NCBI GenBank assembly: GCA_033439255.1
Contig: CM065881.1
Location: 3,472,001-3,536,000 of the forward strand
Reading direction: 5' to 3'
Source: Hericium rajendrae
Taxonomy: Eukaryota > Basidiomycota > Agaricomycetes > Russulales > Hericiaceae
DNA length: 64,000 nt
Part shown: positions 30,423-45,804 of the stretch, piece after piece
How positions within the stretch are numbered: position 1 is the stretch's first letter
How the letters are laid out: the number at the start of each line of letters is the position of its first letter
The notes under the pieces: model-generated
What the model was told of the DNA's origin: nothing
Seen by the model: only the letters and a program-made list of their open reading frames with translations
Database searches by the model: none
Made by a program: the position numbers and the translations under genes

Positions 30423-32157
30423 TCAAGCATCAACCCTTAGCTCTGTTATCCAGACTAAACCTCTGCAAGGCCAGATCTTGACGACCCGAAGACCAGCCTG
30501 CGCCGCGAGCGACTGCAGGTCCTCCGGAGTCCTCTCGCGACCATTAAATTCTGCCATCATGTTCAAATCCCGCATATGCGCGAAACGAGTGGCAGAACCG
30601 TAGTTGGCAGGCAATGGCTCTGGTGCAGATGGGATGGATTGTGAGCCGCAGGTAGTGTTCATTACTTGATCGCAGATGAGGATGCGAGAATCACACCCGG
30701 GTATGAGGGCAGGGCGAAGGGCGGATAAGATCCGGACACAGTTCTTGTCGTCCCAGTCGTGCCTACGCGTGGTCAGATCGAAGACCAAATACCGGATGGG
30801 TGAGACGCACAAAATGTACCGTAGATTGTACACTTGCGCACCCTTGATGGGCTGCTCGGAGAAGAAGTCGTGCGCCATGAGCTGGACACGTTGCGACCCC
30901 AGTGCGACGGACATCTCTTGTTGCCAGACGACGTTGCCTTGTGCTACCACCTCGGGTTGATCTTGAACGACGAATCTTAAATTTGGATATCGCTTCGCCA
31001 GATCAAGGCTCATGCCGCCTGCGTAAAAGCACGCTCAGGTGAAGACGGAAGCACTCAAGTGGAGAGAACGAACCGACTCCTCCACCAACGTCAACCAGAG
31101 TCGCGGAGCCCAAGGAACCCCACGGGTAATCTAGCAACCGTGCGCTCTGTTCAGAACAAATTTTTCATCGCACGGTAAACTGACCGTGGTAGAGAGGAGG
31201 GCAGAAGACACGACCACCTCCGATCATTCCAAGATTGAACATTTCGGCGACAGATTTTTGGGCCGGCTCTTTCATCCAGGACCAGAATGGAAGCGCTGTG
31301 CCCGCGGCTTCCTGGAAAGCGCAATCCACGTTGAGCTCAGATGGACCTTTTACAGGGTCAGCCAAAACATATGGAAGCTTCTCAGATGAGGCGTATTGAA
31401 TGCCAGACCTGCATCATAGACGAACGCATGAGCAATCAGAAAGACAATTATGATGTACGACAAGGTTCACATCGACATTATCCAGGCTCGAAGAGAATCG
31501 TTGCCAACGAGGCATTGACTAGTCGGACTATTCGCAAAGCAATTCGGTTGGACCTCCTGAAATATGTGTACTGTGCATAAGCAGCGTAGTACTTGACCTG
31601 GAGTGCAATCAAGGCATGTCAGCGTTTGAGAAAAAATGTCTGCGAACAACAAGTTGAAAACGGTTCATCTGAAGGTGCGATGCAGTGCGCAAACACTAAC
31701 AAATACAAGCGCTCCCGCCTCGACGACGCCGAGTCCGTCGATCCAACTGACTGAAAACTCGTGAAGCCGTACCCAATTTTTGTTCTTTTATACTGGACTG
31801 TTGGCTCAATATCTCCAGAGGGACACCGGGTCCTGCATCTGCACTGGCAAGCAGGTCTGCAATGCGCCGCTCGACTGCAATATGCAACGCCCGGGCCTCG
31901 AAATATTGGCTACAGACCTCCATCAAACGGCTTCGTGGTTCTTGAACCATATCTACTATCATTCCGCTAGCGGCCAAAGCAACTCTTTGGGCTTGGAAGA
32001 CCTCAGATGATGGTAGATGGTCTTTGTCTGTTTCGTCCTGCGGTTGTATCTTGTCTTCATCTGCCTCCCATTCCCGAATGATGGTTTCAGATGCATCGAC
32101 AAGAAGACTGACCAAGGCTCGTAACTTGCTGGATCTAGTGGGTGTGGTCGTAGACAT
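30423..32157 (-). CDS. SAM-dependent O-methyltransferase (COMT type)
   Basis: Minus-strand gene. The N-terminal dimerisation/winged-helix half reads FEARALHIAVERRIADLL, EILSQQSSIKEQKLG then QVLRCLCTVHIFQEV, with a longer intron (about 160 bases) between. Substrate-side segments follow: FQEAAGTALPFWSWMKE, FNLGMIGGG. The SAM-binding motif is LVDVGGGVGGMSLDLAKRYP, followed by LRFVVQDQPEVV. HDWDDKNCVRILSALRPAL carries the catalytic His context (HDW), and DLNMMAEFNGRERTPEDLQSL ends the fold. This is the plant-COMT-like Methyltransf_2 family that methylates phenolic hydroxyls in fungal specialised metabolism. It is divergent with the halogenase, with 645 bases between, so the two may be co-regulated. 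Exact substrate not visible. Confidence 0.88.
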
Positions 32158-32802
32158 GTCGACGTCAGTCGAGGAACACAAGTGCGCTCGTCACGGCCTT
32201 GCCGCCCGGTGGACACTGATTTTGTTCAGACGTGAGCGCAGTCTAGTTCGTTTATCTTCTACATGGGCTGTTATCAAAACGGTCTGACATTCTGTGGGAC
32301 TCATCACAGGGCATGCCAACATCTTGGTTCTGTTGGTTACACAGTGCCCGAGATTCCAATCAAGTGGTAGATTCCAGTTCACGGCTCCATTCTGCTCGTT
32401 CGGTTCGAATAGATTGCGCAGTACGTCGTTCTTTTCCTCGCTTCAGGTCACCATGCGGTTACACTATGTATGCACAATTAAATCAGAACATTCGAAATCC
32501 GGAAGTTCTTCATTCCTACACGCATCGAAACCCAAGCACCTGCAGCAAAGCTCGTGTATTCCCTCCTGAAGAATCCCTAAAGGGGATATGGTTGTTCAGC
32601 AGGCACTTTGGGCGCTTGGAATCACAGTTTCTTGATCATTGATGCATGATGCGCCGCCGTTCGACTTCAATCGTGACTATACAGCGCTCGGACTATACGA
32701 GGACCACTGATCTGTCAGAACACAAATACATCTGAAGGCGTTTAGTTGTGGCTTGTCGCTCCATCATCGTCCTCTATCCCATCTCAGCCCATTATTCCAT
32801 TC
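32158..32802. promoter_or_regulatory. Shared divergent promoter of methyltransferase and halogenase
   Basis: 645 bases between the two start codons. There is no gene inside; small plus-strand frames have no family features. A bidirectional layout is typical of co-regulated fungal pathway genes. Confidence 0.5.
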
Positions 32803-45500: not shown

Positions 45501-45804
45501 CATAGTACGATTAGATCCGTATAGATGACAACTTTACCTGTATTCGTCGTACGGATAAAGTCGTATGTCTTTACTGGGGCCGGAAGTAGGCCACAGTCTA
45601 TAGACTTGACAAGTATACTCGTATCGTGTCTATTAGACTGACATGTCTACTACGTCCAACTGAATCGCCTCGAAGACATACGGGGCGGGTGAGGAGGACG
45701 ACATCTTTGACCTTGCCTGATGCTTTGAGGCGCAGGAGTTCTTCAGCAATGAAGGCGCCGATATTTCCAACGCCGGCGATAGCGAAGCTCTTAAAGGTAG
45801 ACAT
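39551..45804 (-). CDS. NmrA-like / isoflavone-reductase-family NAD(P) reductase, split by a transposon in intron 1
   Basis: Exon 1 (45682-45804) encodes MSTFKSFAIAGVGNIGAFIAEELL...DVVLLTRP, with the Rossmann loop GVGNIG. A GTATGT donor follows, and exon 2 starts at 40371 after ..TTCACAG (STKNESIDKLVSQGARIASVDYSS). Then come ALESVLTGIDVVIST, KAAGVRLFLPSEFGI, AHTMLKELDLPYLLAFTGLFSDW, SYGADGNAPITFTSRHDIARFLAHIL and a terminal GIVGKPEELS, about 300 residues in all. The family reduces or senses NAD(P)-linked substrates; in pathway clusters it usually reduces quinone, enone or aryl intermediates. The coding frame is intact on both sides, but intron 1 is 5,310 bases because a DNA transposon sits in it. 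Fungal introns are normally near 55 bases, so expression may be impaired. Confidence 0.8.
40462..40712. repeat. Left terminal inverted repeat
   Basis: 251 bases, reverse complement of 45388-45638 with about four mismatches. The outermost bases are GTCTAATAGACAC. It contains tRNA-like A and B boxes on the minus strand. Confidence 0.9.
40634..40699 (-). promoter_or_regulatory. tRNA-like Pol III internal promoter in the left TIR
   Basis: Minus-strand A box TGGCCGAGTGG (40689-40699) and B box GGTTCGACTCC (40634-40644) match the tRNA consensus, with normal spacing of about 44 bases. Transcription would run outward toward exon 2 of the NmrA-like gene. The acceptor and T stems do not pair well, so this is tRNA-derived and not a working tRNA. 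Confidence 0.65.
40852..41010. repeat. Subterminal short tandem repeats
   Basis: Three 21-base units (40852-40914) containing GTCCATAGTACGGATA are followed by three 18-base units starting CTGTACATAC (40951-41004). Related CTGTACAG/GTATGTAC motifs occur near the other end (about 45145-45260). Subterminal arrays of this kind often bind transposase. Confidence 0.7.
41327..41620 (-). pseudogene. Acidic C-terminal coding piece, left copy
   Basis: Minus strand: a PWGLEVIEEVDEGNAEDDGE segment, an intron, then LENPGPLIISMTPWGLQVIKEVDEVDE and stop at 41327. It has the same exon pattern as 44525-44870 on the opposite strand. Probably the 3' end of an element-encoded gene. Confidence 0.6.
41621..43299. 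other. Transposon interior without recognisable coding content
   Basis: Frames such as 42067-42621 (plus) are open, but I cannot assign them to a family. The base composition resembles the rest of the element. Confidence 0.4.
43300..43730 (-). pseudogene. KDZ-type transposase C-terminal fragment
   Basis: Minus strand, two exons with a 50-odd-base intron (GTACGG..GGACAG): DVRLFKVF..LGDSRLRPSWIWLTFE, then HER|VKVHWFRCSALRNRWREEINLLEEEMARIVRYFHYF. The SWIW motif followed by an arginine-rich segment and a LLEEEM..V..F helix is the hallmark C-terminal layout of Kyakuja-Dileera-Zisupton transposases, which are abundant in Agaricomycetes. The catalytic N-terminal and central parts are not seen. Confidence 0.65.
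44525..44870 (+). pseudogene. Acidic C-terminal coding piece, right copy
   Basis: Plus strand: a TPWGLEVIEEVHEGN start, a long Glu/Asp/Gly run (EDGEDDEDGSMDDGEDNSE), a GTGAGT intron, then AENPGALILTTPWGLQVIEEVEEVEG and stop at 44870. Inverted counterpart of 41327-41620, but with an expanded acidic repeat. Confidence 0.6.
45388..45638. repeat. Right terminal inverted repeat
   Basis: 251 bases, reverse complement of 40462-40712. It ends GTGTCTATTAGAC against host intron sequence that leads to the NmrA exon 1 donor at 45681. Confidence 0.9.
45401..45466 (+). promoter_or_regulatory. tRNA-like Pol III internal promoter in the right TIR
   Basis: A box TGGCCGAGTGG at 45401-45411 and B box GGTTCGACTCC at 45456-45466, plus strand. 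It reads outward toward NmrA exon 1, antisense to that gene. A TTTATTTT tract shortly downstream could act as a weak terminator. Confidence 0.65.

Follow-up and report, generated by a model that had tools for sequence, protein, structure and literature searches.

Which genes equip a wood-rotting basidiomycete to make chlorinated anisyl metabolites, described as the most common organohalogens of this group (PMC7036779)? The question is raised by a locus of Hericium rajendrae on contig CM065881.1 of assembly GCA_033439255.1 (positions 3,472,001 to 3,536,000, forward strand), a stretch of 64,000 nucleotides that was analysed as a whole and is referred to here as the window. Within it, genes for an O-methyltransferase (OMT), a flavin halogenase (HAL) and an A-T-R carboxylic acid reductase (ATR) are followed by a gene for an NmrA-like reductase. 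It is proposed that OMT, HAL and ATR form a cassette, free of any polyketide synthase (PKS), that would chlorinate and O-methylate an aromatic acid with a free phenol group and reduce it to the aromatic aldehyde (or alcohol), a reading that we regard as evenly poised between right and wrong. Published work is cited throughout from excerpts of the papers concerned, and statements resting on it are limited to those excerpts.

Domains, gene order, conserved catalytic residues and the interruption of the fourth gene can all be observed directly at the locus. The OMT, HAL and ATR genes are contiguous over 8.6 kb (30423-39030), and their models, spliced by hand at GT-AG sites, are all open. The intron sizes are in keeping with a basidiomycete. 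A first-pass annotation, made from the sequence alone, had described four pathway enzymes standing side by side. All four genes are present in the order and at the positions it gave, each with a spliced model and a Pfam match, and OMT, HAL and ATR are open neighbours; the NmrA-like gene, however, carries a transposon insertion and probably a frameshift as well. For this reason, the cluster proper is counted as three contiguous open genes, accompanied by a fourth that is probably impaired.

Several features support the view that HAL would be a phenol-type flavin halogenase with its catalytic residues kept. The W-x-W-x-I-P motif reported for it by the first-pass annotation is confirmed as GWAWFIP, and its FAD-binding GxGxxG motif reads GGGPSG at residue 17. 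Matches were found to the Pfam families Trp_halogenase (5e-22) and FAD_binding_3, and the top solved relative is the fungal halogenase RadH (PDB 8gu0, E=1.1e-109). The Pfam and PDB E-values were computed on an earlier model of 620 aa, which was dropped when the RadH alignment exposed a retained intron of 63 nt, while the residue numbering used here follows the final 599-aa model with its eight introns of 53-70 nt each. Across the two main stretches of their alignment, HAL and RadH, also known as Rdc2, are identical at 50.2% of 400 aligned positions. Six of the seven residues compared are identical: K78, D355 and F358 align with RadH K74, D325 and F328, and N102, S359 and Q444 with N98, S329 and Q413, the sole change being T360 in place of S330. 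In RadH, activity was abolished by the K74A and D325A substitutions and lowered by alanine at N98, S329, S330 or Q413, and F328 is a residue that phenol halogenases keep (PMC5637929); a later paper terms K74, D325 and F328 essential (PMC10377541). The two proteins differ in length (520 aa in RadH, 599 aa in HAL), with HAL carrying a longer stretch before its C-terminal end. A single-protein search of prokaryote genomes, whose reach extends to close relatives only, returned 12 pattern matches for HAL, none of which was confirmed.

The A-T-R architecture attributed to the acid reductase held up in full, with complete A, T and R domains following in order within one protein (Pfam matches at 41-336, 416-533, 563-624 and 676-912; AMP-binding 1.9e-30, AMP-binding_C_3 5.6e-29, PP-binding 4.1e-8 and NAD_binding_4 2.1e-36). 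The ATR model has eleven introns of 49-57 nt each; its start codon and first intron were chosen by us, and alternative starts are possible. The carrier residue of the T domain is Ser581, within YGVDSLQA. Among solved structures, the R domain of NcCAR, from Neurospora crassa, is the nearest to that of ATR (PDB 8aep, E=7.7e-50), at 34.7% identity over the 277 positions counted in three of the four alignment blocks, and ATR Ser812, Tyr840 and Lys844 align with the NcCAR catalytic residues Ser815, Tyr844 and Lys848. A published table of the NcCAR active site lists nine residues, with a footnote that counts Val, Ile and Leu as equivalent (PMC10168641). Six of these are identical in ATR (the catalytic three together with Glu888, Gln873 and Phe780), two are replaced by Leu (Ile696 and Val874), and Val871 is replaced by Cys. 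As NcCAR is also able to turn aldehydes into alcohols, the end product of ATR may be either an aldehyde or an alcohol. TvCAR of Trametes versicolor, compared with ATR by description only, has the same A-T-R architecture; it reduces benzoic and 4-methoxybenzoic acids as well as C7-C9 aliphatic acids, and 2-hydroxybenzoic and 2-methoxybenzoic acids are not accepted by it (PMC4785219).

OMT carries a dimerisation domain (Dimerisation, 5e-6), a Methyltransf_2 domain (3.8e-25) and the catalytic His. Its introns measure 175, 62, 54, 55 and 48 nt; two in-frame donors are possible for the second, one of which was chosen for the model. The "COMT-type" label given to this enzyme by the first-pass annotation is correct at the level of Pfam, but was rejected as a guide to substrate. 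By sequence, the top solved relative is GedA, the emodin O-methyltransferase of the geodin cluster (PDB 7wh9, 411 bits, E=4e-122; 47.5% identity over 425 aligned positions), in which RYVLHDWSD aligns with the OMT motif RYILHDWDD. The second-best PDB match falls far below it at 165 bits, and among the best 60 of 80 matches the top entry named as a caffeic acid O-methyltransferase reaches 60.5 bits. Beside OMT lies an open reading frame (28988-29512, minus strand) with a high coding score, which appears hydrophobic by eye and matches no Pfam family.

From these parts we infer a joint pathway, the order of its reactions and its substrate. With FADH2, O2 and chloride, HAL would generate a lysine chloramine and chlorinate the position ortho to the hydroxyl of its phenolic substrate. 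RadH halogenates free phenols, likewise ortho to the hydroxyl, and did not accept the methoxy analogues tested (PMC5637929); if HAL is RadH-like, chlorination would therefore come before O-methylation. OMT would next methylate the same hydroxyl in an S-adenosylmethionine-dependent reaction. ATR would then adenylate the acid with ATP, load it onto its phosphopantetheine arm and reduce the thioester to an aldehyde with NADPH, while the NmrA-like reductase would serve as an accessory NAD(P)H enzyme. Starting from 4-hydroxybenzoate, the product would be 3-chloro- or 3,5-dichloro-4-methoxybenzaldehyde, and this conversion to chlorinated anisaldehyde is the leading, if still tentative, candidate within the cassette reading. 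Bjerkandera adusta has yielded 4-hydroxybenzoic, 4-methoxybenzoic, and 3-chloro- and 3,5-dichloro-4-methoxybenzoic acids (PMC7036779), which are acids that the proposed route, or a close variant of it, would pass through. If chlorination must indeed come first, 4-methoxybenzoic acid itself would arise as a side product. By our own criterion, an anisyl pathway would have a halogenase, an O-methyltransferase and an aryl-acid reductase encoded together; here a halogenase and an O-methyltransferase adjoin an acid reductase that may be an aryl-acid one. The pathway to a chlorinated methoxy-benzaldehyde proposed by the first-pass annotation is upheld in part: the three enzymes occur together with their catalytic residues, but the NmrA-like gene is probably impaired and OMT is GedA-like.

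The NmrA-like gene (Pfam NmrA, 1.3e-21; introns of 5310, 66 and 59 nt) is probably impaired by both a transposon and a frameshift. Its 5.3-kb first intron was rejected as an ordinary intron, as it holds an element with terminal inverted repeats (arms at 40456-40712 and 45388-45644, 257 nt, 98% complementary) flanked by an 8-bp target-site duplication, GAAGACAT. When the flanks are joined and one duplication is removed, the empty site is a 59-nt intron with normal ends, like the other introns of this gene. The exons are not touched by the element, and the gene might thus remain functional provided that the 5.3-kb intron is spliced, although fungi do not usually splice introns of this length. 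Translation in frame ends after GKPEELS, whereas NGVWPEWNSKKVIEIIAT and then a stop codon are read in a different frame. We take NGVWPEWNSKKVIEIIAT to be the usual C-terminus of the NmrA-like family, which suggests that this end of the gene (39551-39560) is likely frameshifted or carries a sequence error.

The superfamily of the element is not settled, because no Pfam family scored above cut-off in seven open reading frames inside the element and one across its right end. In these eight frames and two from elsewhere, ten in all, two weak matches below the cut-off were obtained, both in a single frame. The 8-bp target duplication would presumably suit hAT or KDZ elements. GAG/GAC-rich stretches at 44528-44624 and 41459-41555 lie inverted within the element and are 74% complementary. 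A tRNA gene in the element repeats, suggested by a stretch that looks tRNA-like by eye, was rejected: no tRNA was predicted by ARAGORN anywhere in the window or by Rfam between 39500 and 46000 (E up to 1), where the sole match listed was a microRNA family at chance level (22.6 bits, the cut-off being 69).

Several observations weigh against the PKS-free cassette, and the first of them concern its substrate. No other single hint speaks as strongly against a simple anisyl substrate as the likeness of OMT to GedA, which acts on a polyketide anthraquinone, and a GedA-like OMT would suit a larger polyketide phenol equally well. In the geodin pathway, emodin is methylated by GedA and sulochrin is chlorinated by the halogenase GedL (PMC9890505). 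The top three of the 54 solved matches to the A domain of ATR are a 2,3-dihydroxybenzoate-AMP ligase, an anthranilate-CoA ligase and a second dihydroxybenzoate ligase, but they are weak (29-32 bits), and the substrate pocket cannot be assigned from them; the next weak matches are a long-chain fatty-acid-CoA ligase, in fourth place, and then a 4-chlorobenzoate-CoA ligase. The scans for core enzymes covered the six unspliced frames of the 64 kb, in which motifs split by introns can be missed.

Alternatively, OMT, HAL and ATR may together tailor a phenol of polyketide origin (orsellinate, depside or emodin type) whose PKS lies elsewhere in the genome, an explanation that we consider possible but on the unlikely side. 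It would agree with the best match of OMT and also with that of HAL, as RadH is needed for the polyketide radicicol; RadH nevertheless accepts small free phenols too (PMC5637929). Moreover, the PDB holds few fungal O-methyltransferases and halogenases, so that best matches say little on substrate, and the match to GedA informs on family better than on substrate. Halogenation from outside a cluster has precedents among fungi. For example, the melleolide cluster of Armillaria mellea does not include the genes for ArmH1-ArmH5, basidiomycete flavin halogenases that act on free substrate and chlorinate melleolide F in its free form (PMC9144378), and chlorinated strobilurin B is made although the strobilurin cluster, as described, has no obvious halogenase (PMC6158276). 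Similarly, the fungal reductases of clade VI use PKS-derived aryl acids, but most basidiomycete reductases form a separate clade, apart from this PKS-linked one (PMC9605436). Within the scanned frames no PKS motif was found, the strict ketosynthase active site giving no match. The single loose ketosynthase match, at 20381, is antisense to the gene with an SQS_PSY domain described below; one loose GHSxG match lies in a stop-rich frame, and loose ExxR matches were disregarded.

A second set of observations weighing against the cassette concerns whether its genes belong together. The OMT-HAL intergenic region has no word of at least eight bases in common with the other two upstream regions compared, and the three share fewer 7-mers than shuffled sequences do (one observed, against a mean of 3.05). 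The NmrA-like gene looks impaired, and the cluster may therefore be decaying. The region between the divergent OMT and HAL genes is a possible shared promoter. That the genes adjoin one another but share no pathway, or are what remains of a cluster being lost, each with its own role (ATR in general aryl-acid detoxification, for example, and HAL in some other pathway), is improbable in our view: the interrupted and probably frameshifted NmrA-like gene, the upstream regions without a common motif and the orientation of HAL, which runs counter to the other three genes, would fit such an account, but it leaves aside three contiguous enzyme classes whose chemistry runs in series, with open models and the checked catalytic residues in place.

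Compared with known systems, each enzyme of the proposed cassette is of a known kind, while OMT, HAL and ATR together without an adjoining PKS are a variant that was not found described in the open-licence literature. HAL resembles RadH of the radicicol pathway in its essential Lys and Asp, its Phe and its WxWxIP motif, but the motif scans showed no PKS motif in the window. Unlike ArmH1-ArmH5, with which it was compared by description only, HAL adjoins an O-methyltransferase and a carboxylic acid reductase. Likewise, OMT shares the aligned LHDW catalytic motif with GedA, but no anthraquinone PKS is seen in the window. ATR keeps the Ser, Tyr and Lys of the NcCAR R domain and departs from it in overall identity and in the Val871 to Cys replacement. 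The first-pass annotation knew of no defined gene cluster for chlorinated anisyl compounds. An experimentally defined one was indeed not found in the open-licence literature, as judged by titles and abstract openings, but a putative cluster, HfasTerp-104, has been proposed in Hypholoma fasciculare for 3,5-dichloro-4-methoxybenzoic acid on the basis of annotation. It includes a 'benzoic acid reductase-PKS' and a terpene synthase, but neither a halogenase nor an O-methyltransferase is among its genes as listed in the excerpt (PMC8181146). Coordinates of the features discussed, including the GMC genes considered below, are collected in Table 1.

Table 1. Features of the Hericium rajendrae locus, with positions counted from the first letter of the window
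Feature	Position	Strand	Description
OMT	30423..32157	-	446 aa, 6 exons, GedA-like, catalytic-His motif RYILHDWDD
OMT-HAL divergent intergenic region	32158..32802		645 bp, between gene models
HAL	32803..35076	+	599 aa, 9 exons, RadH-like
Halogenase motif GWAWFIP (WxWxIP)	33868..33888	+	motif scan
ATR	35317..39030	-	1043 aa, 12 exons; spliced model and Pfam
NmrA-like (isoflavone-reductase-like) gene	39551..45804	-	272 aa in frame, 4 exons
Left target-site duplication GAAGACAT	40421..40428	+	8 bp
Transposable element in NmrA intron 1	40429..45671		5243 bp
Right target-site duplication GAAGACAT	45672..45679	+	8 bp
GMC oxidoreductase gene 1	11197-13900	-	inverted pair member
GMC oxidoreductase gene 2	15500-18700	+	inverted pair member
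GMC third copy, decayed	25739-26145	-	DNA comparison

Elsewhere in the window, the same six-frame scans found no P450 haem, PAL or terpene-synthase pattern and no second halogenase motif. Pfam was run on 49 of the 873 open reading frames of at least 45 aa, and identified an aspartic protease, GMC pieces, a squalene/phytoene-synthase-like gene, an aldo/keto reductase, RhoGEF, PH and CNH domains and Nnf1, along with a weak 4HBT-like match under the cut-off. The SQS_PSY match at 20-21 kb was rejected as a terpene-synthase core, as it looks like a housekeeping type. The gene concerned (19990-21044, minus strand) probably encodes no terpene enzyme but a protein of the type that assembles mitochondrial complex I; we take this type to be NDUFAF6.

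The first-pass annotation had also suggested that the GMC oxidases and the aldo/keto reductase of the window could sustain a redox cycle producing H2O2. The genes are present, with two full-length GMC genes that are 74-83% identical at the DNA level, but these two lie about 12-19 kb from the cluster and are not specifically similar to aryl-alcohol oxidases, so that they argue neither for nor against the cycle. An approximate GMC sequence joined by hand scored 241 bits against both 4ynt (named Glucose oxidase, putative) and 7vkd (GMC oxidoreductase), compared with 214 bits against the aryl-alcohol oxidase 5oc1 and 209 bits against the formate oxidase 5zu3. Approximate, hand-joined pieces of the aldo/keto reductase gene (23041-24752, minus strand) match Aldo_ket_red at 5e-40, and this enzyme is presumably pyridoxal-reductase-like. 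In addition, an inverted near-duplicate (5871-6638 and 9945-10721, 82-91% complementary in four blocks) overlaps the aspartic protease gene near 9.5-10.5 kb.

In summary, three contiguous open genes with conserved catalytic residues make the question of a chlorinated anisyl gene cluster directly testable. The most specific form of the proposal, in which a PKS-free cassette acting on 4-hydroxybenzoate is the chlorinated anisyl gene cluster of wood-rotting basidiomycetes, and a transposon has caught the loss of its fourth gene in progress, is a doubtful one at present.

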